Below, piece after piece: positions 3,174 to 59,667 of a stretch of 64,000 bases of DNA. Source of the DNA: Saprospiraceae bacterium (lineage in GTDB: Bacteria > Bacteroidota > Bacteroidia > Chitinophagales > Saprospiraceae); assembly GCA_958295895.1 (NCBI GenBank), contig CATQHI010000027.1:1-64000 (forward strand), read 5' to 3'. Both the position numbers and the translations under genes were made by a program. How positions within the stretch are numbered: the stretch's first letter is position 1; the number at the start of each line of letters is the position of its first letter. A model generated the notes under the pieces. It saw nothing but the letters and a program-made list of their open reading frames with translations. It searched no databases and had not been told where the DNA came from.

Positions 3174-3295
3174 GAAGGGGTCAGTTAAGGTGGGTATAAC
3201 GAGCCGTAGCCGGGGGATGTTCCACAAACGTCGCACCGGCGTCCCCCGCCCCAGCGCCTCACGTTTTACCTTTACTTGCCTAACTGATTCGTGCC

Positions 3296-5473
3296 GTGTA
3301 CCGACTCGCCCCGCTTCTTCTCGCTCTCCTGTTTTGCGCGGCCGCAGGTGCACAGCCCATCGAACAAAGCGTAGCCCGCCAGTGGAACGAGGTGTACCTA
3401 CAGGCCATCCGCCAGGACTTCGCCCGCCCGGTCGTACACGCCCGTAACCTCTACCATAGCGCGGCGGCGATGTACGACGCCTGGGCCACGGTACAGGGAA
3501 AACGGGCCCTGCCGCTGCTGGATACCTACCCCGGCTCCGCCAACCTACCCCGCACCGCCGCCGCCGCCGACGAGGCCGTGAGCTACGCCGCCTACCGCCT
3601 GCTCGTGCACCGCTACCGTAGCTCGCCCGGTGCCGCCCGCACTTTACTGCAGGCCCGTACGCTGATGGAGCACCTTGGCTACGACACCACCTACGTAGCG
3701 ACGGATTACCGGCAGGGGAACCCCGCCGCCGTGGGCAACTTTATCGCCGAGCAGATCATCGCCTACGGCCGTACCGACGGGGCCAACGAGGCGCTCAACT
3801 ACGGCAACCAGGACTACCCCGACCCCGTCAATCTCCCCCTAGAGTTGAACCGCCCCTTCAGTATCTTCGGACTGCGCGACCCGGGGCGCTGGCAACCCCT
3901 GGCGTTTTCCGGCGTAGTGATCGACCAGTCGGGGCAGGTACTGGAGGGTAGCATCCCGAGCTTTCTGGGCGCCAGCTGGGGTCGGGTCACGCCCTTCGCC
4001 CTACCCGATAGCGTTAGGGTCGTGCCCACCGTTACCGATAGCATCTACGGCAACAGCCCGGTGTACCACGATCCCGGTCCGCCACCCGGCTTTGTACCCA
4101 CCAATATCGCCGAATTCAACTTCTACCGCTGGAACTTCGAGACGGTGCTGAAGTGGTCGAGCCACCTGGACCCCGACGATGGCGTAATGTGGGATATCTC
4201 CCCCGGGGCCCGCGGCAACCGCACTACGCCGCTACCCACCACCCCGGCCGAATATCGCGCCTTTTACGACGAACACGAGGGGGGGCAGGCCGGCGATGGT
4301 CACCCCCTCAACCCCGTGACCGGTCAGCCCTATACCCCCAACGTAGTGCCCCGCGGCGACTACACCCGCGTACTGGCCGAGTTCTGGGCCGACGGACCGG
4401 CCTCGGAGACCCCGCCGGGCCACTGGTTCACCATCCTCAATACCGTGATGGACCACCCCCTCTTCGCGCGTAGGCTCTGGGGCGAGGGACCGGAACTCGA
4501 TCCCCTGGAGTATGACGTAAAGGCCTACCTCACCCTGGGCGGGGCGCTGCACGACGCGGCCATTACGGCCTGGAGTATCAAGGGGAAGTACGACTACGTA
4601 CGCCCCATCTCGGCTATCCGCTACCTGAGCGCCCTGGGACAGGCCTCGGAGCCGGACAGCCGCAACTATAACGCCAACGGCATCCGGCTCGATCCGGGTT
4701 ACATCGAGTTGGTCGATAGCGCCGCCGAGGTCGTCAATAGCCCTGCCTTACTGCGGGTAAAGGCGCGTGCCTGGACCGGTAATCTGTTCGTAGCCGACAG
4801 CCCCGGAGGCTACGCCGGCGTGGACTGGATCAACCCCTCGGTGTGGGAGCCCTACCAGCGGCCGAACTTCGTCACGCCCAATTTTGCCGGCTACATCTCG
4901 GGCCACTCCACCTTTTCGAGCGCGGCAGCTACGGTGCTGGAGCAGCTTACCGGCTCGCCCTACTTCCCGGGGGGGCTGGGGGAGTTCGTGGCGAAGAAAA
5001 ACGAGTTCCTGGTCTTCGAAAAGGGGCCGAGCGTAGAGGTGGTGCTGCAGTGGGCCACCTACCTGGATGCCGCCTCCGAAACCAGCCTGAGCCGTATCTG
5101 GGGCGGTATTCACCCACCGGTCGACGATATTCCGGGCCGCAAGATCGGTCCGCGCGTGGCCCAGGATGCCGCCATCCTAGCCAGGCAGATCTTTGCCGAA
5201 GAGGCGCTGGTGCTCAGCCTGGGTGACCGAAAGCCGGTAGCCGCCGCCATCTACCCCAATCCAGCCGGGGCGGGGACGCAGGTGCGGGTAGAACTACCGG
5301 TGCAACTCATCGATGTGGAGCGACTCATCGTGTACAGCGGGGTAGGTCAGCGCCTGCGCGAGGTGAGCGTACGGCAGGGAGTGGCGGAGGTGAGCACGGT
5401 AGGTTTTGCGCCGGGGCTGTACTTCCTGACCGACCCGTCACGGCGCGTAGTGGGCAAGCTACTACTGCGGTAG
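3296..5473 (+). CDS. Vanadium-dependent haloperoxidase / PAP2 family protein with T9SS sorting tail
   Basis: Secreted protein of the vanadium haloperoxidase-acid phosphatase superfamily, 725 residues from a GTG start that gives a clean signal peptide ending AAAGAQ. The vanadate/phosphate site is complete: KGKYDYVRP (K-x6-RP, about residue 430), ISGHSTFSSA (SGH, about 535) and SRIWGGIHPPVDD (SRx5Hx3D, about 600). The last 75 or so residues form a type A sorting domain (IYPNPAGAG ... GLYFLTD ... GKLLLR), so the product should leave by the type IX system and be attached to the cell surface or released. Whether it oxidises halides or is a phosphatase cannot be told from these motifs. A copy of the dispersed GC-rich motif lies at the signal-peptide end. 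Confidence 0.92.
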   Translation: MYRLAPLLLALLFCAAAGAQPIEQSVARQWNEVYLQAIRQDFARPVVHARNLYHSAAAMYDAWATVQGKRALPLLDTYPGSANLPRTAAAADEAVSYAAYRLLVHRYRSSPGAARTLLQARTLMEHLGYDTTYVATDYRQGNPAAVGNFIAEQIIAYGRTDGANEALNYGNQDYPDPVNLPLELNRPFSIFGLRDPGRWQPLAFSGVVIDQSGQVLEGSIPSFLGASWGRVTPFALPDSVRVVPTVTDSIYGNSPVYHDPGPPPGFVPTNIAEFNFYRWNFETVLKWSSHLDPDDGVMWDISPGARGNRTTPLPTTPAEYRAFYDEHEGGQAGDGHPLNPVTGQPYTPNVVPRGDYTRVLAEFWADGPASETPPGHWFTILNTVMDHPLFARRLWGEGPELDPLEYDVKAYLTLGGALHDAAITAWSIKGKYDYVRPISAIRYLSALGQASEPDSRNYNANGIRLDPGYIELVDSAAEVVNSPALLRVKARAWTGNLFVADSPGGYAGVDWINPSVWEPYQRPNFVTPNFAGYISGHSTFSSAAATVLEQLTGSPYFPGGLGEFVAKKNEFLVFEKGPSVEVVLQWATYLDAASETSLSRIWGGIHPPVDDIPGRKIGPRVAQDAAILARQIFAEEALVLSLGDRKPVAAAIYPNPAGAGTQVRVELPVQLIDVERLIVYSGVGQRLREVSVRQGVAEVSTVGFAPGLYFLTDPSRRVVGKLLLR

Positions 5474-5617
5474 CTTGGTAAGCTGGCCGACCGAAAAGGT
5501 GTTTCCGGGAGACAAGATGTAAAAAGAGGGGGTTGTATTTTACACCTCGCTTTGAGTTCCGTAAGTCGGTGTCGCTCGGTGCAAGTGCGTATCCCGACTG
5601 GTTTTTCCAATTAGCTA

Positions 5618-6898: not shown

Positions 6899-8335
6899 TT
6901 ACACCATCAGTCGGATAGGCTCCTCCAGACTAGCCTTCACGTCATTGAGGAACTGAGCGGCGGAGGCCCCATCGACTACCCGGTGGTCACTGCTGAGGGT
7001 GACCTTCATGATCTTACCGGGTACCACCTGGCCGCCGCGCACGACGGGTTTATCGATGATGCCGCCTACGGCCAGGATACAGGCGTCGGGCGGGTTGATA
7101 ATAGCGGTGAACTCCTCTACCCCGAACATGCCGAGGTTAGAGATCGTGAAGGTGTTACCACTCATCTCCTCGGGGGTGAGGCGCTTAATTTTGGCGCGAC
7201 CGGCGAGCTCCTTGACCTCGACGTTGATCTGGCTGAGCGACTTCATGTTGGCGTGGCGGATCACGGGTACCAGCAGTCCGTCGGCGATAGCTACGGCTAC
7301 TCCGATGTTTACATCTTGATTGACGCGGATCTTATCGCCTTCCCAGCTGGAGTTGATGGCCGGGTGATTGGGCAGGTTCGTGGCACAAGCCTTCAGAACG
7401 AGGTCGTTGAAGCTGATTTTGACGGGGGCTACTTCGTTGATGCGCTTACGCATCTCCCACACCTTGCCCATATCGATCTCGACGGTAACGTAGAAGTGGG
7501 GGGCGGTGAACTTGCTCTCCGCCAGCCGCCGGGCGATCACCTTGCGCATCTGGCTAACGCTGGAGGTGGTGAAGTTTTCCTGTCCGGTACCGAGGGAGAA
7601 GGGAGCTACCTTGGGCTTGTTGTCCTCGGGGTCCACGGTCACGCCGGGGCTGGGCTCGGCCTGCGGTTTGGGTTGGGGGGGATGGGCGATTGCCTGACCG
7701 CTCTGGGGTTGCGAACCGCCGGCCACTGCTGCGCTGCTGCCTTTGCTCTGCGCTTCTTCGACGTCGCGCTTCACGATACGACCGCCCTCGCCGCTGCCAC
7801 TGACGCTTTTTAGGTCGATGCCGGCCGATTTGGCCATGGCGCGGGCCAGGGGACTGGCTTTAAGGCGGTCGTCATGTTCCCCCGAAGCCGTGGGTGCAGA
7901 CCCATCCGTCGTAGTCCGACCTGGGCTAGCGGGAGCGGCGTTCGCCGGAGCGGTATTATCGGCGGCGCTTTCGGCCTGGTCTACGGTGTCGGTGACCTCT
8001 ACCTCGTCTTGCTCGTCGGCGGCGGGCTCTCCGGCAGAGTCGCTACCATTACTGCTCGCTCCGTTTCCGGCTCCGTCGATGGCCGACTGCCAGTCCTCGC
8101 CCGCCTCCCCGATCACGGCGATGACCCCGTCGATGGGTACGGCTCCTTCCTTGACGGCGATGTGGAGCAGGGTGCCCTCGAAGAAGGAGTCGAGCTCCAT
8201 GGTGGCCTTATCGGTCTCCACCTCGGCCAGTGTCTGACCGGGCTCCACGGCCTCGCCCTCTTCGACGAGCCAGGCAACGATGTTGCCTTCTTCCATGGTG
8301 TCGCTCATGCGCGGCATACGTATAACCTCGGCCAT
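6899..8335 (-). CDS. pdhC: Pyruvate dehydrogenase complex E2, dihydrolipoamide acetyltransferase
   Basis: Acetyltransferase core of the pyruvate dehydrogenase complex, 478 residues from MAEVIRMPRMSDTM; the longer frame upstream adds no conserved sequence. One lipoyl domain (1-80, lipoyl lysine in ETDKATMELDSF), a long Ala/Pro/Asp-rich linker, an E3-binding domain (about 155-190, SPLARAMAKSAGIDL...GRIVKRDV) and the CAT catalytic domain, whose active-site HRVVDG motif lies near the C-terminus. E1 and E3 genes are not adjacent. The linker is long and acidic for a single-lipoyl E2. An E2 of another 2-oxo-acid complex is possible, but MPRMSDTMEEG is characteristic of the pyruvate enzyme. Confidence 0.92.
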   Translation of the reverse strand: MAEVIRMPRMSDTMEEGNIVAWLVEEGEAVEPGQTLAEVETDKATMELDSFFEGTLLHIAVKEGAVPIDGVIAVIGEAGEDWQSAIDGAGNGASSNGSDSAGEPAADEQDEVEVTDTVDQAESAADNTAPANAAPASPGRTTTDGSAPTASGEHDDRLKASPLARAMAKSAGIDLKSVSGSGEGGRIVKRDVEEAQSKGSSAAVAGGSQPQSGQAIAHPPQPKPQAEPSPGVTVDPEDNKPKVAPFSLGTGQENFTTSSVSQMRKVIARRLAESKFTAPHFYVTVEIDMGKVWEMRKRINEVAPVKISFNDLVLKACATNLPNHPAINSSWEGDKIRVNQDVNIGVAVAIADGLLVPVIRHANMKSLSQINVEVKELAGRAKIKRLTPEEMSGNTFTISNLGMFGVEEFTAIINPPDACILAVGGIIDKPVVRGGQVVPGKIMKVTLSSDHRVVDGASAAQFLNDVKASLEEPIRLMV

Positions 8336-8468
8336 AATCTCTGCGTGTTTTGGGTGGTGATCGGGGGCCGGCAAATTTGGGGCCTAATCACGGGATAAAC
8401 AAACTGTAAGGGGGTGTGATTGTTTTCTCTATTCACCTTGCACCTGCGCGCGCGCCCCAACCTTCTGC

Positions 8469-9558: not shown

Positions 9559-10584
9559 ATGCACACCCCTCCTACTAGTCCGTATCATTTGCCCCCCGTG
9601 CTCCAGGATTGGCGCCAGGAAAACTGGCCGGAGGTAAGCGTCTCGGTAGTTACCTACAATCAGGCGCACCTGATCGAGCGGGCGCTGGATAGCATCCTGG
9701 CCCAGCGGGTCAGCTTCGCCTACGAGATCGTGGTGGGTGACGACTGCTCCACGGATGGCACCCGCGCTATCCTGGAGCGCTACCGGTCCCACCATCCCGA
9801 TAAGATCAGGCTGCTACTGTACGAACAACGTCTTCCAGGCACCCCCGGCCGGCAAAACAACATGCGCAATCCCGTGGCCTGCCGCGGCAAGTACACCGCA
9901 CTCCTGGATGGAGACGATTACTGGATCGACCCCAACAAACTACAGTCGCAGTACGAGGTGATGGAGCGGTACCCCGAGCTGAGTATCTGTCTCCACGATA
10001 CGCGTTGCACCATCATCGGCCCCGATGGCCGGCTCATGCCCGACGAGACCCACCTCCGCAGCGGCCCCCCGGAGCGTAAGCCTGCCGCCGGCTTTTACGA
10101 TCACGCCTTTTTCTGCGCCGACCGTAACATTCGGGTCCATACCAGTTCGTTCTTTTTCCGTACCCGCATCTTCGGCGACTGGCCGCCGGGCTATGAGAAA
10201 GTGGTGGCGGCCGACCACTACTTATTTCTACTCATCAGCCAGCGCGGCCCGGCTTACTACGACCCCACCGTGCGCTCCGTCTATGAGGTCCAGACGGTGA
10301 GCCTCACCCAGGGCCCGGCCTACCTCAGCGAGCCCCGTGTCGCCCAACGTATCCGTGACCTTAGGACCTATCGCCGCCGTTTTCCGGCTACCCGACTTAC
10401 CGTTTCCTATAGTGTTTTTGCTGCTCGTCACCTCAAGTGGCTCATCTTTATGGCGCTACGTAGGGGGGAGATCCGGCAGGCGTCTTCCTGGTTCGTGCAG
10501 CTGCTGGCCGAACCCCGGGGGCTCTACGAAATGATCCGGTACCGCATCCGTAAAAGCATGAAGCCCCATACTCTACGCCGATGA
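9559..10584 (+). CDS. Family 2 glycosyltransferase
   Basis: GT-A fold glycosyltransferase, 341 residues, cytoplasmic or membrane-peripheral. Family 2 hallmarks: VSVVTYNQAHLIERALDSIL, the nucleotide-sugar loop VGDDCSTDGT, and the metal-binding DGDDYW (DxD equivalent) at about residue 120. C-terminal part is basic and partly hydrophobic (LKWLIFMALRRGEIRQA), perhaps membrane-associated. The stop overlaps the start of the next glycosyltransferase (ATGA, 10581-10584), so the two are translationally coupled. Sugar and acceptor are not evident; no other polysaccharide genes are nearby. Confidence 0.9.
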   Translation: MHTPPTSPYHLPPVLQDWRQENWPEVSVSVVTYNQAHLIERALDSILAQRVSFAYEIVVGDDCSTDGTRAILERYRSHHPDKIRLLLYEQRLPGTPGRQNNMRNPVACRGKYTALLDGDDYWIDPNKLQSQYEVMERYPELSICLHDTRCTIIGPDGRLMPDETHLRSGPPERKPAAGFYDHAFFCADRNIRVHTSSFFFRTRIFGDWPPGYEKVVAADHYLFLLISQRGPAYYDPTVRSVYEVQTVSLTQGPAYLSEPRVAQRIRDLRTYRRRFPATRLTVSYSVFAARHLKWLIFMALRRGEIRQASSWFVQLLAEPRGLYEMIRYRIRKSMKPHTLRR

Positions 10585-11555
10585 AGGTCTCCATCATCAT
10601 CCCTGCCTACAACGCAGCCCCTTTCCTCCAGCGGGCCATCCACTCAGCCATGCGGGCGGGGTCGCAGGTGCGGGGCGGGTGGGAGGTGATCCTGGTCGAT
10701 AACGGTTCCACGGACGCTACCGGTGAATTGATCGCTCAGGCAGTGCGAGCCCACGAAGGACGCATCCGCGCCACCAACTGTAGCCAACCGGGAGCAGGCG
10801 CGGCCCGAAACCTGGGCGCCGCGATGAGTAGCGGAGAGTGGCTTCAATTCCTGGATGCTGACGATACCCTGGCCCCCGAAAAGATCGGCCACCAGCTCGG
10901 TCTGGCCGGAAAGGCCAAATGGGTGGTTGGGGCTTACCGGCATCTGTACTCCGATGGAAGCACCGAAGACTCGCTACCGCATCCCGACCTCTGGCGGGGC
11001 TTATTTCACAATTACCGCACGGGGCATACCATATCCAACCTCGTACACCGCAGTGCCTTCGACGCCATTGGTGGCTGGGACGAAACCCTGCCCAGCAATC
11101 AGGACCCCGACCTGCACTACCGCCTGCTCAGGGCGAAAATCCCCTACGTGATCGACAACCACGTTGCCAGTTTCTACCACCACCACGACGGGCCCCGCAT
11201 CATCGCTTCCGATCCCGCCACAAAAATGCACATCCGCGTGCGCTTCCTGGCCGACGCCAACGACTACCTATTCACCACCCGCCCCACCTACTGGCAGCAG
11301 CACGCCCCCTACTTTCTCGGTGCCCTCCTGCGCGCCGTGCGCATGCTAGCCACCCACGACCTGCCGGCCGCCAGTACAGCCTACACCAGCTACTTCGGCC
11401 CCACCCGCCCCTGGCCACTGCCGGACCGGCCGCTCGAACTGATGCCCCGCTACACCCGCCTTTACCCCTACCTCGGCTTCCGCACCCTAGAGTCTGCTCG
11501 CCTATCCCTCACCCGCTACCTCCCCCCTACCCTTAGGCAGCTCCTGAAATCGTAG
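10581..11555 (+). CDS. Family 2 glycosyltransferase
   Basis: 324-residue GT2 enzyme coupled to the preceding one by an ATGA overlap. N-terminal [18 protein letters not shown], the [12 protein letters not shown] nucleotide loop, [25 protein letters not shown] with the metal-binding DADD at about residue 95, and a later [12 protein letters not shown] segment with the catalytic-base-like acidic residue. Substrate unknown. The two enzymes probably act in sequence on one glycan. Confidence 0.9.
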
Positions 11556-12656: not shown

Positions 12657-13274
12657 TTAATCCGTATAGCCCTCCGGTAGGGCCCACCCATAGCCGAGCC
12701 AGTCCTCCAGATGGTCTACATCGCTCAGGTAGGGCAGTTGGTAGGTCGACAGGCCCTGCACCTGCGTCCGCGCCAGCGTTTCTTCCAGGACCTCGGAGGT
12801 GCTCCAGGGCATATCGGTAAATAAGAACGGTTGCGGCCGCCGCATGCCTAGCAGGTAGTAACCGCCGTCGTTCGCCGGGCCTACCACGACGTCATGGTCG
12901 GTGAGGGATGCAAAGGCCTCTTCGAGCAACTCGGTAGTGACGCCCGGACAGTCGCTGCCGATGATAAGGACCCGGTCGTGCCCGTGGGCGAAGGCGTGCT
13001 CGAAGGCCCCGGCCATGCGCTGCCCCAGGTCCTGCCCTACCTGGAGAAGTTTGACGAAGCGGTTAGCGGGCCAGTCGTCATCCGTAGCTACGTGATCGGA
13101 GTAGTAGAGGTAGCACGTGGCGTCCTGCAAGCCGAGTGCCTGATCGCGGGTGTACCGCAGCAAAATACCGTACATGTGCAGGGCCATAGCGTCGCCTACA
13201 TCCTGGGCCAGGCGGGTCTTGGTCCGGCCGGCGATGGGGTTTTTGACCATGACGATCAGAGCGGGCTGGGGCAT
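12657..13274 (-). CDS. DUF2064 / TIGR04282 family glycosyltransferase-like protein
   Basis: 205-residue GT-A fold protein related to sugar-nucleotide transferases. The start MPQPALIVMVKNPIAGRTKTRLA is chosen because the conserved nucleotide-binding loop (KNP..GR.KTRLA) begins there. Other family blocks: LGQRMAGAFEHAF, VLIIGSDCPGV (metal-binding aspartate) and VVGPANDGGYYLLGM, then PWST. Activity of the family is not firmly known. Converges on aroC with an 11-bp gap. Confidence 0.88.
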   Translation of the reverse strand: MPQPALIVMVKNPIAGRTKTRLAQDVGDAMALHMYGILLRYTRDQALGLQDATCYLYYSDHVATDDDWPANRFVKLLQVGQDLGQRMAGAFEHAFAHGHDRVLIIGSDCPGVTTELLEEAFASLTDHDVVVGPANDGGYYLLGMRRPQPFLFTDMPWSTSEVLEETLARTQVQGLSTYQLPYLSDVDHLEDWLGYGWALPEGYTD

Positions 13275-13329
13275 GGCGGCAAGATAAGTGATGCCGCGCC
13301 CAACCCCCGGCTGTACGGAATCGTTGCAT

Positions 13330-13424
13330 GGAGGCTTACGTCCATCGCCGATCCGCCGCCGCGGGCCGAACACATTCGTGGCTACGTGGCGTTCTGGAAG
13401 GAAGTGAAAGTGCAGAAAAATTAA
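13330..13424 (+). pseudogene. Possible 3' remnant of a small DUF427-like gene
   Basis: The plus frame ending at TAA 13422-13424 reads ADPPPRAEHIRGYVAFWKEV, which resembles the C-terminus of DUF427-type proteins (AHI.GYVAFW). No matching N-terminal part exists upstream, where the DUF2064 gene lies on the other strand. It may be a truncated leftover or chance similarity. Confidence 0.3.
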
Positions 13425-13433
13425 GCCAGACGC

Positions 13434-14696
13434 GTGACGCGAACCATTACTACCCCCTCTTCCGAAGTCGCGCGGCATTACACCCGGGTGCGGGAGCAGT
13501 CCGTCTATCTATGTGCTCCCCTGCAGCAGGAGGATTACGTTGTCCAGCCGCGGGCTGAGGTGAGCCCCCCCAAGTGGCACCTGGGGCATTCCAGCTGGTT
13601 TTTTGAAAACTTCCTCCTAGCTGAATACCTGCCCGGCTACCGGCGCTTCGACGAGCGGCTCAACTACTTCTTTAACAGCTACTACGAGAGCCAGGGGCCC
13701 CGCATTCAGCGGAGCCAGCGCGGTAATATGAGCCGCCCCGGCCTGAAGGTGATCCTGGACTACCGCGCTCACGTAGACGCGGCCATGCAGCAGCTACTGG
13801 GCCTACGTCTTCCCCAGGTTGCTACCCTGACCGAGCTTGGATTGCACCACGAGCAGCAGCACCAGGAACTGCTACTGACGGACATCAAGTATATTTTCGG
13901 CACCAACCCGCTTTACCCTCCGTACCGCGACCTGGTCATCCCCACCTCCCCCCCACCCTCGCTTGCTTACGTCTCCATTCCCGGAGGCCGTTACGGAATC
14001 GGGCACCGGAGCCCGGGCTTTTGCTGGGACAACGAGCTCGGCGCCCACGAGGTCCTGCTCCAGGATTACGGCATCGCCTCACGCCTGGTGACTAACGGCG
14101 AATACCTGGCCTTCATGGCTGACGGGGGCTATGAGCGCTTCGAGCTCTGGCAGATGGACGGGATCGAATGGGCGCGCGGGCTGGCCGAGCAAGCGCCCCT
14201 CTACTGGTACCGGACCGAGGCCGGCTGGCGGCACTACACCCTGCACAAGGGCCTGGAGGAGATCGACCCCAACCTACCGGTCACCCACATCAGCTGGTAC
14301 GAGGCCGATGCCTACGCCCGCTGGGCGGGGGCCCGTCTGGCCACCGAGTTTGAGTGGGAGATCGCCTGTAACACGCTCAGCCCGGAGGTCGACCCGCGGG
14401 GCAACTGGGTCGAGCGCGAAGCCTACCACCCGCTGGCTGCTACCGATACGTCCGATTACCAGTTTCTAGGTCACTGCTGGGAATGGACGAATTCGGCGTA
14501 CCTTCCCTACCCCCGCTACCCCCGTCCGCAGGGTGCTCTGGGGGAGTACAACGGTAAGTTCATGATTAATCAAATGGTGCTGCGGGGGGGTAGCTGCGCC
14601 ACCCCCCGCAGTCATATCCGCTCCACGTACCGTAATTTCTTTCAGCCCGACAAGCGGTGGCAATTTACCGGCATCCGCCTCGCCAAAGATCAATAA
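13434..14696 (+). CDS. egtB: Ergothioneine biosynthesis protein EgtB
   Basis: Non-haem iron sulfoxide synthase that joins a sulfur donor (gamma-glutamylcysteine or cysteine) to hercynine with O2. 420 residues from GTG. N-terminal DinB-like four-helix domain with the iron-ligand motif HHEQQHQEL (about residue 140) and an upstream histidine in WHLGHSSWFFE; C-terminal formylglycine-enzyme/sulfatase-modifying domain (about 170-420) ending GGSCATPRSHIRSTYRNFF. Lies 3 bp before egtD, a clear two-gene operon. The sequence does not say which thiol donor is used; no egtA/egtC/egtE is present here. Confidence 0.94.
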   Translation: MTRTITTPSSEVARHYTRVREQSVYLCAPLQQEDYVVQPRAEVSPPKWHLGHSSWFFENFLLAEYLPGYRRFDERLNYFFNSYYESQGPRIQRSQRGNMSRPGLKVILDYRAHVDAAMQQLLGLRLPQVATLTELGLHHEQQHQELLLTDIKYIFGTNPLYPPYRDLVIPTSPPPSLAYVSIPGGRYGIGHRSPGFCWDNELGAHEVLLQDYGIASRLVTNGEYLAFMADGGYERFELWQMDGIEWARGLAEQAPLYWYRTEAGWRHYTLHKGLEEIDPNLPVTHISWYEADAYARWAGARLATEFEWEIACNTLSPEVDPRGNWVEREAYHPLAATDTSDYQFLGHCWEWTNSAYLPYPRYPRPQGALGEYNGKFMINQMVLRGGSCATPRSHIRSTYRNFFQPDKRWQFTGIRLAKDQ

Positions 14697-20618: not shown

Positions 20619-21283
20619 TCGCTCAGCGGGTAGCGCGGCCCGGTGAAGTTGAAGTGCCACCATTCGGTGCGGATCGTGGCAAAGCCGTAGCGGAGGAGCA
20701 CGTCCTGGAGGATGGCCCGGTTTTGCAGCACGTCGGCCGGCAGGTCGGTGGTGGTGGTGTAGGCCGCCTCGCCGAAAAAGTCATAGGGGGGTACCCATAT
20801 CCAGTTCCACGCCGGTGTCCAGGTTGATGAGGGTGAGGTCGGCAGCAGCCCGCGGCTGTGCAGGCTACCGCGTTTGGGGTTGGCCACGTAGCGGGCATCC
20901 GGCAGTACGTCCCAGAGCCGCTGCTGGTAGGGGCCGGGGCGGTAGCAGTCGTACAGCTTGAGGCCGAGGCCGCGGGCAGTGAGTTCTTGCTGGGCGTCGG
21001 CTAGGGCCCTGGCTACCTTGGGACGATAAAAGCAGCGACCGCAGTCGTAGATCTTGCGCTCCATGAAGTTGTCCGTAGTCGCGTAGCGCAGCTCGAGCGC
21101 GATGGTAGAATCCAGCCGGATGAGCTCGGTCCACTCCGTCGTATCGTAATCGGGTGGCGGGGCGAGCAGCTCCACGGCCACCACCGGCGGGTGATCGGAA
21201 AGGCTGCCTGCAGCACGGTACGCTGCTCCGGGGCGGGGGCCGCAGGTGCAAACGAACAGGAAGAGCAGGGCGAATCGGTACAC
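20594..21283 (-). CDS. D-alanyl-D-alanine dipeptidase (VanX/DdpX family) with two compensating frameshifts
   Basis: Zinc dipeptidase of the M15D family, probably exported (hydrophobic N-terminus from GTG at 21283). Family blocks: LELRYATTDNFM, YDCYRPGPYQQRLWD, GSLHSRG and EWWHFNF (catalytic Glu and zinc His). The reading frame stays open, but between about 20860 and 20796 it runs out of phase: the other frame gives AADLTLINLDTGVELDMGT, exactly the zinc-ligand segment expected after GSLHSRG. A missing base near CGCGGGCT and an extra C in a six-C run explain this. The protein as written would lack the ligand Asp. In non-pathogens such enzymes recycle peptidoglycan peptides. Confidence 0.85.
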   Translation of the reverse strand: MYRFALLFLFVCTCGPRPGAAYRAAGSLSDHPPVVAVELLAPPPDYDTTEWTELIRLDSTIALELRYATTDNFMERKIYDCGRCFYRPKVARALADAQQELTARGLGLKLYDCYRPGPYQQRLWDVLPDARYVANPKRGSLHSRGLLPTSPSSTWTPAWNWIWVPPYDFFGEAAYTTTTDLPADVLQNRAILQDVLLRYGFATIRTEWWHFNFTGPRYPLSEWTWDCAE

Positions 21284-35064: not shown

Positions 35065-35068
35065 GGTC

Positions 35069-35329
35069 TTACTTTTTGCGGCGGCGGCGGCGAATGTCAT
35101 CCCGCTTTTCGAGTACTTCGGCGGGTAGGGAAGCTAGTTCGCGACGGCGAATTTCGGTTTTGATGCGGGCGATGTCACGACGGACAGTGCGCAAATGGAG
35201 CGGGTGCTCGATACCATTCACGGTATGGTCAAACTTCATCTTCTCAAAACTACCCGTAGTCTCGTTCAGCTGGTCCTGTAGATCGCTGTCGGATACATCC
35301 CGAAGTTCTAATGTCTTATTACTCGCCAT
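35069..35329 (-). CDS. rpmC: 50S ribosomal protein L29
   Basis: 86 residues, slightly long for L29. Helical hairpin protein at the exit tunnel: [35 protein letters not shown], and a basic tail RRRRRKK. Intact. Confidence 0.94.
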
Positions 35330-43945: not shown

Positions 43946-44177
43946 GGGGGGGGTTGTTGAGTTGGTTGGTTGTTGAGTGGCCGTTGTTGTAGGTGTGGTA
44001 GGAGTCATAGGTGTGGTAGACGTCGCGTTCACTTAGCATGCCTGGTAGGTGTGATCCTGAGATGCGCTTTCCGGATGCACGAAATATTCTTTGCACCTGC
44101 GGCCCCGTCCCCTATCACGCCTGCCACACTTCCGACAACCGCACCGCAACAACCCACCAATTCAACAACGCCCCCCC
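43946..44177. repeat. Imperfect inverted-repeat element, arms about 66 bp
   Basis: Arm 1 (43946-44011) runs GGGGGG, GTTGTTGAGTTGGTTGG, GTTGTTG, GGTGTGG, ATAGG. Arm 2 (44111-44177) read on the minus strand runs GGGGGGCGTTGTTGAATTGG, GGTTGTTG, GTGTGG, GATAGG in the same order. About 100 bp lies between, including TTGCACCTGCGGCCCCGTCC. The outer edge of arm 2 touches the ftsY stop. It may be a MITE-like element or a large bidirectional terminator. Confidence 0.7.
44091..44112 (+). repeat. Dispersed GC-rich motif, representative copy
   Basis: TTGCACCTGCGGCCCCGTCC. Copies close to TGCACCTGCGGCCCCGCCCC were found by eye on the plus strand at 3233-3252, 8439-8458, 12757-12774, 19929-19948, 44091-44112, 50580-50596, 52699-52717 and 58861-58880, and on the minus strand at 3336-3352, 10654-10671, 21230-21250, 26722-26740, 34744-34765, 49805-49825, 54638-54657 and 59409-59427. 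The most variable positions are the seventh base (T, G or C) and the eleventh. Confidence 0.75.
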
Positions 44178-49286: not shown

Positions 49287-50942
49287 ATGCCCCCCCGCGA
49301 CTGGCTCCGGCTCCACTCCGCAGATAACTTGATCGTGGCCCTGCGCGACCTGGCCGCCGGTACGCTGCTGCAGATCGACGGTACGAGCATCCGGCTACCG
49401 CAACCCGTGCGTGCCAAACATAAATTTACCCTCCACCCCACCGCAATTGGTACGTCCTTATATATGTACGGTGTGGTAGTGGGCACGCCGACCGTATCGC
49501 TTCCCGCGGGCTCGGCCATCACGACTGCAAATACGGTACACGCTACTCAGCCCTATACCGCTACCTTCCGGCCACCTAGTTGGTCGCCACCCGATGTCTC
49601 TCACCTGCGGCGCCTACACTTTCAGGGCTACCACCGCTCCGATGGCCAGGTCGGTACCGCCAATCACTGGCTCGTCATCCCCCTGGTCTTCTGCGAAAAC
49701 CGCAACGTCGAGGTCCTCAAAACCGCCCTCCTCGAACCCCTGGGCTACGCCACTCCCCCACTCCAGCAGGCACTCACCCGGCAGCTCATCCAGTCGTACC
49801 GGGCGGGCGGGGCCGCCGGTGCAAAGTCTATGGAGGATCCTTCGAGTCCTGCGGTTGGCCCCACCAGTGAACGTGTATTCCCCAATGTAGACGGGATCAA
49901 ATTCCTGACCCATCAGGGCGGCTGCGGCGGCACCCGGCAGGATGCCCAGTCCCTCTGCGAGCTGCTAGCCGGCTACCTCTGCAACCCCAATGTAGGCGGA
50001 GCAACCGTACTGAGTCTGGGTTGCCAGAACGCCCAGATTACTCTACTACAGGAGGCCCTGGCCCGCCGGGATCCCAACTTTGGTAAGCCCCTCTACATCC
50101 TCGAGCAGCAGGGCGGCGGCACCGAACCCGAATTCCTCGACCGGGCCATCCGCCAGACCTTCGCCGGTCTTGCCACTATCAACGAAGCGACCCGCCAGCC
50201 CGCCCCCCTCAGCAAGCTTACGCTCGGCCTCGAGTGCGGCGGCTCCGACGGCTTTTCCGGTATCTCGGCCAATCCCGCCCTCGGCCACGCCTGCGACCTA
50301 CTGGTAGCCCTTGGCGGCCGGGCCATGCTGGCGGAGTTTCCCGAGCTCAATGGCGTGGAGCAGGAACTCGTCAACCGTTGCACGACGCCGGAAGCCGCCG
50401 AAACCTTCACCCGTCTGATGCGCAGCTACGCCGCTGCGGCCGCAGCGGTAGGTTCCAGCTTCGCCAGCAACCCCTCCCCCGGCAACATCCGCGATGGATT
50501 GATTACGGATGCGATGAAGTCGGCGGGTGCCGCAAAAAAGGGCGGCTCCTCTCCCATCGTTGCCGTGCTCGATTACGCCGCACCTGCGCCCCCGGCAGGA
50601 CTGAGCTTGCTATGTACACCAGGAAATGACGTGGAAAGTACCACCGCTCTGGCTGGCTCCGGCGCTAACCTAATCGCCTTTACGACCGGTCTGGGTACCC
50701 CCACCGGTAACCCCGTAGTGCCGGTGATCAAGATCAGCTCCAACGACGCGCTGGCCGCCCGGATGCCCGACCTGATCGACTTCAACGCCGGGGGCATCAT
50801 CACCGGCCGGCAGACCGTGGTTGAGGCCGGAGAAGAACTACTCCATCTTCTGATTGAGGTAGCTAGTGGCCGCACCCTTACCGCCGCCCAGCGCCTCGGG
50901 CAGGACGATTTCATCCCCTGGAAACGCGGTATATCGCTCTAA
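49287..50942 (+). CDS. uxaA: Altronate dehydratase
   Basis: 551 residues; dehydrates D-altronate to 2-keto-3-deoxygluconate in galacturonate breakdown. N-terminal SAF-like domain (VALRDLAAGTLLQIDG), then the UxaA core with HQGGCGGTRQDAQSL (conserved Cys, iron-linked), LECGGSDGFSGISANPALG and ISSNDALAARMPDLIDFNAG. Normal length. Two copies of the dispersed GC-rich motif fall in variable stretches (49805, 50580). uxaB follows by 3 bp. Confidence 0.93.
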   Translation: MPPRDWLRLHSADNLIVALRDLAAGTLLQIDGTSIRLPQPVRAKHKFTLHPTAIGTSLYMYGVVVGTPTVSLPAGSAITTANTVHATQPYTATFRPPSWSPPDVSHLRRLHFQGYHRSDGQVGTANHWLVIPLVFCENRNVEVLKTALLEPLGYATPPLQQALTRQLIQSYRAGGAAGAKSMEDPSSPAVGPTSERVFPNVDGIKFLTHQGGCGGTRQDAQSLCELLAGYLCNPNVGGATVLSLGCQNAQITLLQEALARRDPNFGKPLYILEQQGGGTEPEFLDRAIRQTFAGLATINEATRQPAPLSKLTLGLECGGSDGFSGISANPALGHACDLLVALGGRAMLAEFPELNGVEQELVNRCTTPEAAETFTRLMRSYAAAAAAVGSSFASNPSPGNIRDGLITDAMKSAGAAKKGGSSPIVAVLDYAAPAPPAGLSLLCTPGNDVESTTALAGSGANLIAFTTGLGTPTGNPVVPVIKISSNDALAARMPDLIDFNAGGIITGRQTVVEAGEELLHLLIEVASGRTLTAAQRLGQDDFIPWKRGISL

Positions 50943-50945
50943 GCT

Positions 50946-52331
50946 ATGCTCTCACTCACGCGTACGACCGCCGAAGACCTGCCGCCCCTCCGTATCCTAC
51001 AGTTCGGTGGGGGAAATTTTATCCGCGGCTACTTCGACTGGATGGTGGACCTGCTGAATGAGCGGACCGACTTTTACGGTAGCGTACTGGTAGCGAAACC
51101 TACCGCGGAGGGATTTTACAGCGATCTGATCCTACAGCAAGGGCTCTTCCATGTCGTGCTCGACGGGGTACGCGGGGGTGAGCCGGTGCACGAGACGCGG
51201 CTGGTGAAGAGTGTGACGGACGTGGTGCACCCCCACCAGGACTACACCGACTTCATCAACTACGTGGTGGAGGACATCGACTTCATCGTCTCCAATACCA
51301 CCGAGGCCGGTATCCGCTTCCGGCCCGAACCCTGGGTGGAGGGACGCTGCGCCGAGGAATTCCCCGGGAAGCTCACCCAGTGGCTCTACTACCGCTGGCA
51401 GGAGATTCAGCCGGGCTGCCACATCATCCCCCTGGAACTGATCGAGAACAATGGGGACGAGCTGCGGCGCTGCGTCCTGGCCTACGCCAAGCACTGGGAC
51501 CTTGGCGATAACTTCCAGGACTGGATCCGCGAGAACAACCGCTTCTACAATACCTTGGTGGACCGGATCGTCTCCGGCTTCCCCGTGAATGCTGAAGCGT
51601 TGTGGGAGCAAACCGGCCGGCGGGATAAGCTGGTCGTAGCCGGCGAGTACTACCATAGCCTCGTAATCGAGGCCCCACCGACGGGCATCCCCGGCTTACC
51701 TCTCCACGAGGCTGGCATCAATGTGATTTACACCGACGACCTCACCCCCTACCGCGAGCGCAAGGTGCGGCTACTCAATGGGGCCCATACCGCGATAGTG
51801 CCCACCGGCTACCTCGCCGGGCTAGAAACTGTCGGTGAGGTGATGCAGGATAGTGCCATGACGGCCTACCTGGAGTGGGTGCTCTACGAGGAGATCATAC
51901 CTAGTCTAGACCAGTCGGAGGAGGAGCTACGTGCTTACGCCGCCGATGTCCTCGACCGCTTTCGCAACCCTACACTGTACCATAAGCTGCTCGATATTTC
52001 CCTGAATAGTACTACTAAGTTTCGGACGCGATTGCTACCTAGTCTGCTGGCTTACCAGCGGCAGTTTGATAAGCTACCGACCGGTATTGTACGGGCGCTG
52101 GCAGCGCTGCTAGTCTTTTACCGGGGCCGGCGGGGGGAGGCCAAAATTCTGCTGCGTGATGAGACTGATCGGTTGGCGTTTTTCCGGGAGGTGTGGGCGG
52201 GTGATCCAAGCAGCGGGGAGGTGGTGCGGCAGGTGCTGGGCCGGGAGGATTGGTGGGGGCGGGAGCTTACTGCTATCCCCGGATTGACTACGGCGGTGAC
52301 TGAGCAGGTCGATCAGACACGGGTCGGATGA
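50946..52331 (+). CDS. uxaB: Tagaturonate reductase (mannitol dehydrogenase family)
   Basis: 461 residues; NADH-linked reduction of D-tagaturonate to D-altronate, feeding UxaA. Nucleotide-binding ILQFGGGNFIRGYFDWMV, SNTTEAGIRF, and the polyol-dehydrogenase catalytic region RKVRLLNGAHTAIVPTGYLA with the catalytic lysine. The upstream enzymes (uxaC isomerase) and 2-keto-3-deoxygluconate kinase are not in the window. Its stop overlaps the next ATG (ATGA). Confidence 0.92.
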   Translation: MLSLTRTTAEDLPPLRILQFGGGNFIRGYFDWMVDLLNERTDFYGSVLVAKPTAEGFYSDLILQQGLFHVVLDGVRGGEPVHETRLVKSVTDVVHPHQDYTDFINYVVEDIDFIVSNTTEAGIRFRPEPWVEGRCAEEFPGKLTQWLYYRWQEIQPGCHIIPLELIENNGDELRRCVLAYAKHWDLGDNFQDWIRENNRFYNTLVDRIVSGFPVNAEALWEQTGRRDKLVVAGEYYHSLVIEAPPTGIPGLPLHEAGINVIYTDDLTPYRERKVRLLNGAHTAIVPTGYLAGLETVGEVMQDSAMTAYLEWVLYEEIIPSLDQSEEELRAYAADVLDRFRNPTLYHKLLDISLNSTTKFRTRLLPSLLAYQRQFDKLPTGIVRALAALLVFYRGRRGEAKILLRDETDRLAFFREVWAGDPSSGEVVRQVLGREDWWGRELTAIPGLTTAVTEQVDQTRVG

Positions 52332-52795
52332 CGGCGCAGTCGGTAGACTGCATGCAACCCCGCGGCTGGAAGCCGCGTTGTACTGCCGTGCAGGCAATTG
52401 CCCCTCTCTTCCTGTCTTTCCTGATGCTCGTCGGCTCCGTCGGTGTGACGGTGAACCGGCATTTTTGCAGGGGGGAGCTGAAGTCGGTGGCAGTGTTCGC
52501 CGAGGTGGAGGCATGCCACCAGGAGGCCACTGAGCCAGTCTGTCCGCTGCACGCCGCCGCTAAGAAGGGTTGCTGCAATGACGAGCACGAGTTCGTGAAG
52601 TCCGACATCGACAAACAGCTGGTCGATGCTACCGACTTACCCACCCCGCCCGCCTTTACCCCCTTACTCCTTAAGCCCCTTACCCCTCCACCGGCCCAGC
52701 ACCTGCGGCCCCGCCCCACGGAGACGTACCTGCACTACCGACCGCCGCCGCTGCTGATCGACGTGCCGCGCCTGTACCAGGTGTTTCGCATTTAA
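52328..52795 (+). CDS. HYC/CC/PP-type small membrane-anchored protein of copper clusters
   Basis: 155 residues at most; function unknown. Hydrophobic segment AIAPLFLSFLMLVGSVGV, then NRHFCRGELKSVAVF, a KKGCCNDEH pair of cysteines, and a Pro-rich end (TPPPAQHLRPRPTE ... RPPPLLIDV). This layout matches a Bacteroidota family named for its HYC, CC and PP motifs that sits next to CusA genes. Here HFC replaces HYC. The first 20 residues or so are encoded partly by a palindrome (52361-52377), so the real start may be internal. Cys/His content suggests metal binding (inference). Confidence 0.7.
   Translation: MTAQSVDCMQPRGWKPRCTAVQAIAPLFLSFLMLVGSVGVTVNRHFCRGELKSVAVFAEVEACHQEATEPVCPLHAAAKKGCCNDEHEFVKSDIDKQLVDATDLPTPPAFTPLLLKPLTPPPAQHLRPRPTETYLHYRPPPLLIDVPRLYQVFRI
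52361..52377. repeat. Palindrome in the 5' end of the HYC-type gene
   Basis: CGCGGCT-GGA-AGCCGCG: 7-bp arms, 3-nt loop. Similar in layout to the palindrome at 56686-56701. Confidence 0.7.
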
Positions 52796-52868: not shown

Positions 52869-56613
<3,745 letters not shown>

Positions 56614-56615
<2 letters not shown>

Positions 56616-56652
56616 TATGCGATATGCGATACTCGATATGTGATATACGATT
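56614..56652. repeat. Short tandem GATATGC-like repeat at the cusA-tolC junction
   Basis: GATATGC-GATATGC-GATACTC-GATATGT-GATATAC-GAT: about five 7-8 bp units starting at the cusA stop codon. Confidence 0.85.
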
Positions 56653-56659
56653 TACGGGG

Positions 56660-57883
56660 ATGCTCGCTGCGCTCGTGTGTGTAGCGACGGCTTTAGCCGT
56701 CCTGCTGCCTACAACACTAGCCGGTCAGTCGCTCGACTCCCTACGCACCCTGCTACGGGAAAACAATCCCGAACTAAAGGCACTCACCTACGACTACCGG
56801 GCCGCCCTGGCCATCAGCCCACAACTGTCGCAGCTACCCGACCTGGAGATCGGCGGCGGGGTATCCATACTACCCGTAGAAACCCGCCTCGGTCCACAGC
56901 GCGCCCGGGTCATGGTCACTCAGATGCTGCCCTGGCCGGGTACGCTGGCGGCCATGTCGGCGCTGGCCGATGCCCGGGCACAACCGGTGCTCGAACAGAC
57001 GGCCGCACTACAGCTGGAACTGCTATACACCCTGGAGACCACCTACTACGCCATCGTAGCCGCCGGAGAGCAAATGGAAGCCCTGACCGAAAGCCTTAGG
57101 CTGTACGAAAGCCTGCGGGAGCTGGCCATTAGTCGGGTCGAGAACTCCCGCGGCAGCTCCGTCGATGTGTACCGCACCGAGCTACGGGCGAATGCCGAGC
57201 GGCGAGGTATCGAGCAGCGGCGGGCGGAAATCGCGATGTCCTGGTCTACCATTGAAGAGCTAGTCAATCGAGACCTACCCCGCATAGTCGTCGTACCCCA
57301 GGTGGCCGTACCCCGCAGTATACCGAACGAGCTCGACCTGGCGAGCCACCCTCAACTGCGCATATTCGCGCTGCAGGAGGAGATATCCCGCCGTACCGTA
57401 GCCCTGAATGACCTGGAGGCGCGGCCGGACTTCGGTGTGGGGGCAGACTACATCATCACTGGCCGACGTACCGACATGGACCCCGAGGGCAACGGCCGTG
57501 ACGCCATCCTACCCCGGGTCATGCTACGTATACCCCTCGGCGGGGGCCGGTTCCGGGCCGTCCGTGACGAGGAAGCACTGCGTATCCAAGCCATTGCCAG
57601 CCGCCGGACGGCCGTGGTCAGTCAGTTCACCACCGCCATCGACCGCGCCGACATCGCCCGTCTGGATGCTCAGCATCGCCTAGTTTTCCTGCGCGAGCAG
57701 GTTACCACCCTGGAGGCCGCCCTAACCATTGCCCGCGCGGAGTACGCCAATGGCCGGCGCGCCTTCGACGAGTTGCTCGAGCTACAGGAACAACTCATCG
57801 ACTACCGTACCGAGGCCACCACGGCCCAGCAAACTGTCTTCACCCAGTCCGCACTTATCGACCGCTACCTGCCGTCCCGCTAA
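56660..57883 (+). CDS. TolC/CusC-family outer-membrane channel
   Basis: Outer-membrane efflux protein forming the exit duct of the Cus pump. Start ATG 56660 gives MLAALVCVATALAVLLPTTL plus AGQ, a good signal peptide; in-frame ATGs further upstream lie in a tandem repeat. Coiled-coil repeats of the OEP family: ALQLELLYTLETTYYAIVAA, SVDVYRTELRANAERRGIEQ, and AEYANGRRAFDELLELQEQL near the end. About 407 residues. The signal-peptide coding region contains the palindrome at 56686-56701. Unlike cusC of enterobacteria no lipobox is seen. Confidence 0.88.
   Translation: MLAALVCVATALAVLLPTTLAGQSLDSLRTLLRENNPELKALTYDYRAALAISPQLSQLPDLEIGGGVSILPVETRLGPQRARVMVTQMLPWPGTLAAMSALADARAQPVLEQTAALQLELLYTLETTYYAIVAAGEQMEALTESLRLYESLRELAISRVENSRGSSVDVYRTELRANAERRGIEQRRAEIAMSWSTIEELVNRDLPRIVVVPQVAVPRSIPNELDLASHPQLRIFALQEEISRRTVALNDLEARPDFGVGADYIITGRRTDMDPEGNGRDAILPRVMLRIPLGGGRFRAVRDEEALRIQAIASRRTAVVSQFTTAIDRADIARLDAQHRLVFLREQVTTLEAALTIARAEYANGRRAFDELLELQEQLIDYRTEATTAQQTVFTQSALIDRYLPSR
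56686..56701. repeat. Palindrome in the tolC signal-peptide coding region
   Basis: GACGGC-TTTA-GCCGTC: 6-bp arms, 4-nt loop. Confidence 0.7.
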
Positions 57884-57894
57884 TCCCCTTTCCC

Positions 57895-59667
57895 ATGAGG
57901 CTACAGACCATTCTCTATATCGGCTTTGCCCTGCTTATCGGCCTACTGGGCGGCTACCTCCTATTTAGTGGAACGCCTCCGTCGGCGGACGAGCAAGCTT
58001 CGCAGACGATGGAGGCTGAGATATACACCTGCTCCATGCACCCCCAGATCCAGCGCGATGAGCCCGGCGACTGCCCCATCTGCGGTATGGACCTCATCCC
58101 GCTTGACGCAGCGAGCAGTACCGACCCCACCGTGCTGACCATGACCGATGCCGCCGTAGCCATGGCAAGGGTACGGACTACCGAGGTAGGCAGCGGCGGG
58201 GCAGACAATCCCGCTACCCCGACTGCGATTCAGCTGACCGGCCGGCTGGCCCTGGACGAGTCCTCCGCCACCGTCCAATCCGTCAACTACCCCGGCCGGC
58301 TGGAGCGCCTGCTGGTCACCTACGCCGGCGAGGAGGTGCGCGCCGGCCAGCAGATCGGTACCATCTACAGCCCCGAGCTCGTGGTGGCCCAGGAGGAGTT
58401 GCTGGAAGCCACCAAACTAGCCAACCTTTCCCCCGAGCTCCTCACCGCCGCCCGCAGTAAACTCCGCAACCTCAAGATCAGCGACGAGCGGATCGCCGAA
58501 GTAGAGCGCAGCGGGGAGGTGATCACCAACTTCCCCGTGTACGCCGAGCGCGGTGGTACCGTGCTGGAGGTACGTGCCCGCGTGGGAGACTACGTTGTGG
58601 CCGGCGAGGCACTCTACACCCTCACCAACCTGAGCGAGCTCTGGGCCCTATTCGATGCCTACGAAGCGGATCTGGCCCGGGTGCGGGTCGGTGACCGCGT
58701 CAAGTTCACCGTGGCTTCCTTACCGGAGCAGACCTTTACGGCACGGGTAGCCTTCATCGATCCGCTGATCGACCCGCAGACGCGCACGGCGTCCATCCGC
58801 GCCGAAGTCACGAACCGTTCCGGTCGGCTCAAACCGGACATGTTTATTCGCGGAACGCTCGCACCTGCGGCCGCGCCCCCTAGTGGGAACAGCGAGGAGC
58901 TGGTGGTGCCTAAATCCGCCGTGCTCTGGACCGGCGAGCGCTCCGTGGTCTACGTAGAGCTTCCAGACACAGAGGTGCCCACCTACCAGTTTCGCGAGGT
59001 GGAGCTGGGGCCGGCTACCGGCAACGGCTACGCGGTACGGTCGGGCCTGGAGGCAGGCGAACGGGTGGTCACCAACGGTGCTTTCCAGCTCGACGCCGCC
59101 GCCCAGCTCCGTAATCAATCTAGTATGATGAACCGCGACGTGGTGATACAGGGCCGTGAAGCAGGGGAGGTGACCGCTATGGTGCTACCCGACTACCGGG
59201 AGGAAACACCGGACGCGTTCCGGCAGCAACTGGCGCGAGTGGCCGAGGCCTACCTACCCCTCAAGGATCGCATGGTGAGCAGTGAGGTAGCGGATGAATC
59301 GCTACTACAGCCCCTGCGGCAGGCACTCGCGGAAGTAGATATGTCGCTAGTCGAAGACGAGGCCCACCGCTACTGGATGGAGCAGCTAGGGGCTCTGCGC
59401 ACCCACCTGGGCGGGGTCGCAGGTGCAGAGTCGGTAGGTGAACAGCGCGAGCAATTCGGTTTCCTCTCCCAGGCTTTGATCAATACCCTGAGCGTTTTCG
59501 GGGCCGCAGCCCCCCTGTACGTGCAGCACTGCCCGATGGCCTTCGACGGGGCCGGAGTCAACTGGCTTAGCAAAGACGCCACCATCCGCAATCCCTACTA
59601 CGGTGACGCCATGCTAACCTGCGGCTCCACCATCGACACGCTTGGAAAAGGAATTCCCGCCTTATGA
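57895..59667 (+). CDS. cusB: CusB-type efflux adaptor with heavy-metal-binding and DUF3347 domains
   Basis: 590-residue periplasmic adaptor linking CusA to the TolC duct. N-terminal membrane anchor (8-25), a heavy-metal-binding domain (YTCSMHP at 44-50, CPICGMDLIPL at 60-70), then lipoyl/barrel-sandwich and beta-barrel domains (GRLERLLVTYAGEEVRAGQQ, VVAGEALYTLTNLSELWALF, RLKPDMFIRG). The last 160 or so residues form a DUF3347 domain ending YVQHCPMAFDGAGVNWLSKD...AMLTCGSTID, with Cys/Met/His likely binding copper. Two dispersed-motif copies lie in its linkers. Stop overlaps the araC-type start (ATGA). Confidence 0.93.
   Translation: MRLQTILYIGFALLIGLLGGYLLFSGTPPSADEQASQTMEAEIYTCSMHPQIQRDEPGDCPICGMDLIPLDAASSTDPTVLTMTDAAVAMARVRTTEVGSGGADNPATPTAIQLTGRLALDESSATVQSVNYPGRLERLLVTYAGEEVRAGQQIGTIYSPELVVAQEELLEATKLANLSPELLTAARSKLRNLKISDERIAEVERSGEVITNFPVYAERGGTVLEVRARVGDYVVAGEALYTLTNLSELWALFDAYEADLARVRVGDRVKFTVASLPEQTFTARVAFIDPLIDPQTRTASIRAEVTNRSGRLKPDMFIRGTLAPAAAPPSGNSEELVVPKSAVLWTGERSVVYVELPDTEVPTYQFREVELGPATGNGYAVRSGLEAGERVVTNGAFQLDAAAQLRNQSSMMNRDVVIQGREAGEVTAMVLPDYREETPDAFRQQLARVAEAYLPLKDRMVSSEVADESLLQPLRQALAEVDMSLVEDEAHRYWMEQLGALRTHLGGVAGAESVGEQREQFGFLSQALINTLSVFGAAAPLYVQHCPMAFDGAGVNWLSKDATIRNPYYGDAMLTCGSTIDTLGKGIPAL

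Follow-up and report, generated by a model that had tools for sequence, protein, structure and literature searches.

The Neisseriaceae and Pasteurellaceae take up DNA via type IV pili, and to our knowledge they are the only families from which uptake sequences are known. They are also the families named in this connection in published accounts (PMC7811141, PMC12616744), and the DNA uptake sequences (DUS) of the former and the uptake signal sequences (USS) of the latter are reported to have a high copy number, species dialects, permissive core sites, rarity in acquired DNA and an origin in place (PMC3630211, PMC2397512, PMC7811141, PMC12616744). The element considered here is a GC-rich motif of about 20 bp, which is scattered over a stretch of 64,000 nucleotides from a member of the Saprospiraceae (assembly GCA_958295895.1, contig CATQHI010000027.1, positions 1 to 64,000; hereafter “the window”) and over the rest of the same genome. 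Judged from its congeners, the host belongs to Neolewinella, placed by NCBI in the Bacteroidota, Saprospirales, or close to it, and its genus holds Neolewinella species. Judged from sequence comparison, an even chance is given to the reading that the copies constitute one genome-wide, species-specific self-DNA signal, which would work like a DNA uptake sequence and would be kept by biased transformation. This reading proceeds from the abundance of the motif on both strands, dialects that share sites, mostly substitutional gain and loss, one motif-free island, and strand-specific spacing. A literature search, which covered subscription journals and preprints only in small part, returned no report of the motif or of any uptake sequence in Neolewinella, Lewinella or the Saprospiraceae.

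The closest resemblance is to the DUS of Neisseriaceae, for which many copies, one consensus per species, and dialects between relatives are described (PMC3630211). The USS core is reported to extend with A/T tracts to about 32 nt (PMC12616744), and in N. persica and one congener (G013; congeners are given by number throughout) the core of the present motif is similarly accompanied by T/C and A tracts. However, the motif differs from DUS in its core of about 20 bp, its phylum, the lack of any pilus ATPase found, and its strand-specific spacing, and from USS in sequence, phylum, and machinery. Since the likeness is combined with a different length, pilus equipment, and spacing, an uptake-like signal is proposed, and membership of the DUS is not claimed.

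The Motif and Its Abundance

The core of the motif, yTGCACCTGCGnCCCCGCCC, spans about 20 bp and is joined in several species by T/C-rich bases upstream and an A-tract downstream. Information is spread over some 20 positions, with one near-free position in the middle, and the consensus holds about 23-36 bits over 20 or more positions. No palindrome is evident in it by eye, the sequences flanking dispersed copies are unrelated to each other, and a scan of the window against Rfam at gathering scores gave no match to an RNA element.

A first, sequence-only reading of the window had counted about 16 copies and judged them far denser than chance would allow. The count is correct within the choice of threshold: 13 sites lie within three mismatches of TGCACCTGCGGCCCCGCCCC (mean of 0.03 in 100 dinucleotide shuffles), 17 lie within three mismatches of the 18-mer GCACCTGCGGCCCCGCCC, and 18 sites, nine per strand, reach a score of at least 14 with a position weight matrix (PWM) built from the own genome (mean of 0.4 in 20 first-order Markov windows). 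The excess extends to the whole genome (4.77 Mb in 35 contigs), where the 18-mer core, with up to three mismatches, occurs 1060 times (511 forward, 549 reverse), i.e., about once per 4.5 kb, compared to 55 sites for the reversed pattern as a control. This control, together with the shuffled and Markov backgrounds, rules out chance arising from base or codon composition. A conserved protein motif is ruled out as well, as sites within genes are found on either strand and in every one of the six codon phases (phases were counted without G011), so that neither of the two trivial explanations named in the sequence-only reading accounts for the copies. A phage-borne element was also considered and rejected: a viral collection, which possibly omits records near the own genome, contained one exact match to the own core and one to the pattern of G011 (see below).

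Distribution and Species Dialects

In 17 of 20 congeners, the core is present in hundreds of copies and exceeds its control more than threefold. The others are G007 (2.7-fold), G001 (31 sites vs. 32 in the control) and G011 (16 vs. 10). Among 59 genomes of other genera, the core count never exceeds 35 and never lies more than nine above the genome's own control. An exact-match scan of named genomes found at least 88 loci, and among the matches listed 71 belong to Neolewinella or Lewinella. Six sister genera, sampled at 40-100 kb each, showed no comparable motif in these stretches, which are short enough to miss one; in the sample of one sister genus, G023, the strongest 9-mers are packed into three to nine one-kb bins.

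The congeners in which the core is scarce carry words of their own. The G001 dialect, TTTACCTGCGCTCCGCCGCC, occurs in 623 copies compared to none for its control, and the G011 dialect, TTGCTACTTTGnnAGYCAAA, in 1133 copies compared to 14, with at most 12 in any other genome of the genus. G007 has a third form, about CTCCTGCGCTCCGGCGCCC, and forms a few bases off the core are found in G004 (GCTCCCGCGnCCCCGCCC), G013 (GCACCTGCGGCAGCGCCC) and G019 (GCACCCGCGACCGCGCCC). The consensus of N. persica and that of G013 include the extra T/C-rich bases upstream and the A-tract downstream, and amount to 36.4 and 34.1 bits in all, respectively. The exact form was analyzed for part of the congeners, and the dialect of G020 did not come out. 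In a weakly resolved tree of ten genomes, based on part of a CusA-like gene, G011 forms the longest branch under midpoint rooting. Two hallmarks of DUS and USS are found here: hundreds to thousands of copies of one consensus (1060 vs. 55 in the own genome, with comparable excesses for the G011 and G001 dialects), and dialects between related species (G001, G007, G011, and the minor variants). The existence of species dialects supports a sequence that is read by a trans-acting protein, and the protein-binding site suggested at the outset gains support accordingly.

Several motif copies in the G011 samples stand in close inverted pairs with the potential to form hairpins, similar to the terminators described for DUS and USS (PMC2397512, PMC7811141). 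The samples of G019 (L269-L273) contain about 68 copies of several 9-mers within five to six one-kb bins, perhaps a CRISPR (clustered regularly interspaced short palindromic repeats) or other tandem array.

Genomic Context and Strand-Specific Spacing

Context and spacing were counted in ten genomes from four dialect groups, leaving aside G020, six short G011 contigs (L153-L158), and the N. persica loci, the latter because they had been picked for holding exact copies. With genes approximated as the longest non-overlapping open reading frames (ORFs) of at least 100 aa, which is not an annotation, sites are denser between genes (0.65 per kb, 150 sites) than within them (0.18 per kb, 327 sites). 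Within genes, the first 120 bp favor the same strand as the gene (58 vs. 25) and the last third favors the opposite strand (63 vs. 29). The strand of a site is independent of local GC skew (161 agree, 159 disagree, 105 flat); a replication-polar signal is thereby ruled out, and the idea of a segregation signal, also part of the sequence-only reading, finds no support.

The spacing of the sites depends on their strand. Up to 3 kb, the frequency of same-strand pairs is 0.11-0.51 of expectation, and it returns to about 1 near 5 kb. Convergent pairs on opposite strands stay around expectation (0.57-1.27 below 5 kb), and divergent pairs are raised about twofold below 1 kb. Among 245 pairs less than 3 kb apart, 53 are on the same strand, compared to a mean of 122 from a strand model based on gene context, which never fell below 89 in 2000 runs, and close opposite-strand pairs outnumber close same-strand pairs in each of the ten genomes. 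The avoidance of neighbors on the same strand, without avoidance between strands, seems to imply that the two strands hold separate sets of spaced copies, each effective over a few kb. This argues against an orientation-independent action of the putative signal, which would probably act with polarity.

The spacing itself, whatever the function of the motif, could also have arisen, at least in part, because close direct repeats are deleted and inverted ones are kept. Such an origin would fit the marked depletion at short distances and among strong sites (18 same-strand vs. 132 opposite-strand pairs below 3 kb; weak sites 13 vs. 11). However, the depletion still amounts to 0.41 of expectation at 2-3 kb, presumably a long way for deletions between repeats of 20 bp, and as an account of this one feature repeat deletion appears doubtful.

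Polarity is a property of Chi sites as well, which are widespread, species-specific, 5-8 nt in length, and read by AddAB or RecBCD; Chi of E. coli is biased to the direction of replication. If the motif were a Chi-like recombination signal, a helicase-nuclease at a DNA end would be switched by a correctly oriented copy, leading to one-sided recombination, and one copy per strand every few kb would be enough. The same-strand repulsion, which extends over about 3-4 kb and has no equivalent between strands, is consistent with this, as are a density near that of E. coli Chi and the species-specific forms. In contrast to known Chi sites, however, the motif is informative at about 20 positions, and it lacks the orientation bias of E. 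coli Chi, given the even split with respect to GC skew. Together with a chromosome-organizing site (see below), a Chi-like function is the main rival of an uptake-like signal, but overall it is considered unlikely.

Shared Sites and Origin in Place

Stretches of 100 kb in G009, G017, G001, and G004 are collinear with the window, and comparison of orthologous places, as the sequence-only reading had advised, revealed that most sites are shared: 15 of 19 scored window sites have a same-strand site at most 15 bp away in at least one of the four relatives. The corresponding value for random placement is 0.22, which assumes uniformity and ignores permissive places that might attract sites. When positions interpolated across alignment gaps are dropped, 12 of the 19 sites are still shared. 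Sharing extends across dialects: five of nine projected G001 sites, in their own dialect, have a same-strand site of another species no more than 30 bp away (two inside the alignment, three interpolated). In a multiple alignment, the G001 dialect occupies the places of the window sites at 52697 and 54638, and each of five genomes (the own one, G017, G004, G001, and G011) has its own form on the same strand in the linker of the CusA-like gene.

Ordered comparisons that could be aligned through a site gave 112 shared and 43 absent cases; these pairs are not independent of each other, and 245 comparisons that could not be aligned through the site were dropped. In 35 of the 43 absent cases, the two sequences differ by at most 6 bp in length, and in 18 of these by zero. 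As missing sites differ mostly by substitution and not by insertion, copies mostly arise and change in place, which is the mode of origin expected of uptake sequences.

A stretch of 72 kb in the own genome (G000:C3:230000-302000; L130-L134), which looks acquired, is free of sites. It encodes type I restriction, specificity, and methylase proteins as well as a DDE transposase, of which the genome holds seven more near-whole copies, and 20 kb of it, searched against the genus, gave only short scattered matches. For acquired DNA, the absence of the motif is an observation on this one stretch.

The conservation of sites would also be expected of a binding site for a chromosome-organizing or nucleoid protein, which might space loops or domains with the two orientations acting independently. 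The per-strand spacing agrees with such a role, and transformation would be unnecessary. However, absence from the acquired-looking island and the full change of dialect in G011 would presumably require a joint change of the binder and some thousand sites in the absence of any drive, and this explanation, too, is held to be unlikely. A mobile mini-repeat that inserts its copies, as proposed in the sequence-only reading and as known from repetitive extragenic palindromic (REP) or miniature inverted-repeat transposable (MITE)-like elements, is very improbable: it would fit the dispersed copies with unrelated flanks and one G017 site that aligns with +21 bp against two relatives, but these are the only 2 of 43 absent comparisons compatible with a clean 21-bp insertion, whereas 35 differ by no more than 6 bp, orthologous places carry different dialects on the same strand, and a palindromic unit is not seen by eye.

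Candidate Machinery and Evaluation of an Uptake-Like Signal

According to the proposed mechanism of an uptake-like signal, a DNA-binding component of the cell would prefer signal-bearing DNA, and incoming DNA of the same species would then recombine into the chromosome. The signal would accumulate in place through point mutation and biased recombination, and species would diverge into dialects as the reader protein changes. The affected step would be DNA uptake by transformation, the action would be polar with one useful copy per strand per ~4 kb, and the reader might be a surface or periplasmic protein, not a type IV pilin. In its most specific form, which is put forward tentatively and at somewhat less than an even chance, the proposal is a polar self-DNA signal in Bacteroidota, in which each copy would permit one strand to be taken up or recombined in one direction over ~4 kb, by a pilus-independent machine whose reader sets the dialect. 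If this is true, it would represent an independent case of uptake sequences in a phylum without the type IV pilus, which would mean that the evolution of self-marked genomes is not tied to one kind of uptake machine. The reader could then be found as a surface protein that changes with dialect across about 20 related species, and the strand-specific spacing would show polarity of DNA exchange in bacteria directly at the genome level.

A pilus-independent precedent is provided by Riemerella anatipestifer, a competent member of the Bacteroidota, for which ComEC, DprA, ComF, RecA, an HHH protein, a DUF1343 protein, and two surface proteins are reported as essential; one of the surface proteins is predicted to reside in a fimbrium, and no type IV pilus gene is named among these essentials (PMC8459023). 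In addition, Riemerella columbina is reported to favor its own DNA (PMC7965970). The genus studied here shares several of these families: ComEC is encoded in 21 of 21 genomes, and DprA, the DUF1343 family, and HHH_3 proteins are present in 18 of 19 genomes each, the miss being G010, an assembly of 55% completeness. Top 10-mers reported for Riemerella are A-rich runs and do not resemble the present motif (PMC7965970). An exact copy of the motif lies inside the comEC gene of the own genome (G000:C2:226251; L279:11251), and a weaker copy is located 70 bp before its called start.

Several results weigh against an uptake-like signal. No transformation has been reported in the genus in the literature covered. 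No ATPase of the PilB/PilT/GspE family (PF00437), the type IV pilus machinery of DUS and USS users, was found in any of the 21 genomes of the genus, which gave only partial hits of 19-25 bits (maximum 25.5); in 11 of the 21, the score reaches the 24.9-bit cut-off with a margin of no more than 0.6 bit, and the match covers about 83 of 370 profile positions within ORFs of about 940-1070 aa. Three other genomes score more than 400 bits, and the partial hits in the genus presumably represent unrelated P-loop proteins. Without an ATPase of the type IV pilus or the type II secretion system, the known route for DUS and USS is therefore missing. ComEC, DprA, DUF1343, and HHH_3 proteins indicate capacity only, because they are common in motif-free genera, too. 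DUF5689, the family of RS04920, the Riemerella surface protein with the predicted fimbrial location, is missing in 20 of 21 genomes of the genus, which sets the genus apart from Riemerella and leaves this family unsupported as a receptor. USS orientation is reported to have no effect on uptake (PMC1939737), in contrast to the strand-specific spacing observed here. Moreover, exact copies by themselves, which are far apart, do not alternate between strands: in six contigs (those of C4, C7, and C9 were dropped), 45 of 87 neighbors are on the same strand, which lends the proposal no support, and in C3 six minus copies are followed by six plus copies. Finally, the higher identity of the motif compared to its flanks at shared sites (0.84 vs. 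0.64) is inflated and partly built in, because shared sites were chosen by motif score.

The genome of the genus that does contain DUF5689 is G011 (G011:C115:8691-10592; L299), and the family is also present in eight of nine other genera of the bacterial family that were searched, which might reflect a swap of a DNA-binding surface protein.

Copies in the Window and Neighboring Features

TCGCACCGGCGTCCCCCGCC (3231-3250, plus strand) is a weak copy (PWM 22.1) without an ortholog site in the four relatives, and GTGCACCTGCGGCCGCGCAA (3334-3353, minus; PWM 20.4) is likewise not common to relatives. Intergenic copies had been claimed near 3233, 8439, and 44091; the first of these, with five mismatches to the 20-mer, is the weak one, and the other two are borne out. 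One adjoins a gene similar to the E2 component of 2-oxoacid dehydrogenases (6899-8374) and lies at 8438-8457 (plus; PWM 27.2), with a dialect copy of G004 in the same place. The other, at 44091-44110 (plus; PWM 23.8), has two same-strand counterparts, a G001 dialect copy at a distance of about 4 bp and a G004 copy at about 30 bp, each placed by interpolation across gaps of 232-238.

The placements within genes that had been described for a haloperoxidase, VanX, CusA, CusB (two copies), a UxaA-type altronate dehydratase (two copies), and an extension of ribosomal protein S17 all hold. The haloperoxidase/PAP2-like gene (3296-5473; Pfam) contains a minus copy at 5268-5287 (PWM 26.8), whose site is the same in G009. 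In the gene of a D-Ala-D-Ala dipeptidase of the VanX type (20594-21283; Pfam), the copy at 21232-21251 (minus; PWM 27.4) corresponds to a G004 copy about 12 bp off, interpolated across an alignment gap of 234. The N-terminal extension of the S17 gene (34420-35100; Pfam) carries a minus copy at 34747-34766 (PWM 24.0), with a G004 copy about 4 bp off as interpolated across a gap of 292. Both copies in the altronate/galactarate dehydratase-like gene (49287-50942; Pfam), at 49805-49824 (minus; PWM 28.6) and 50578-50597 (plus; PWM 23.3), are common to G009. The variable linker of the CusA-like gene (52869-56615) harbors a minus copy at 54638-54657 (PWM 29.7), which is common to G004 and G017, with the G001 dialect aligned there and a same-strand dialect copy of G011 in the linker. 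In the CusB-like gene (57895-59667), the copy at 58859-58878 (plus; PWM 25.5) has no counterpart in the four relatives, whose sequences differ there by 1-6 bp in length, and the second one at 59409-59428 (minus; PWM 30.8) is common to G004, G009, and G017.

These three relatives also share the copies within a DUF2064 gene (12657-13478; Pfam) at 12756-12775 (plus; PWM 27.5), within an ORF (19149-20039) at 19929-19948 (plus; PWM 28.6), and the copy TTGCACCAGCGGCCCCGCCA at 27471-27490 (plus; PWM 26.6). The same is true for a copy without mismatches to the 18-mer, at 52697-52716 (plus) within the ORF 52328-52795, where the multiple alignment puts the G001 dialect in the same place. A glycosyltransferase gene (10581-11555; Pfam) contains a minus copy at 10654-10673 (PWM 28.8) that is common to G009 and G017. 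Within an ORF for an HI0933-like flavoprotein (26572-27552), the copy at 26722-26741 (minus; PWM 28.8) is matched by copies in G004 and G017 and a dialect copy in G001, all in the same place and on the same strand within the alignment.

Other repeats occur in the same part of the window as the CusA- and CusB-like genes. A 112-bp repeat with 71% identity is found at 59513-59624, within the segment of the CusB-like gene that encodes DUF3347, and downstream of it at 60729-60840. The intergenic stretch 56613-56720 contains GATATGCGATAT-like repeats and the short inverted repeat GACGGCTTTAGCCGTC, with short matches of 76-93% in several genomes of the genus, and a stretch of 39 bp at 55235-55273 has matches of 92% in unrelated parts of the own genome (C2) and of G009.

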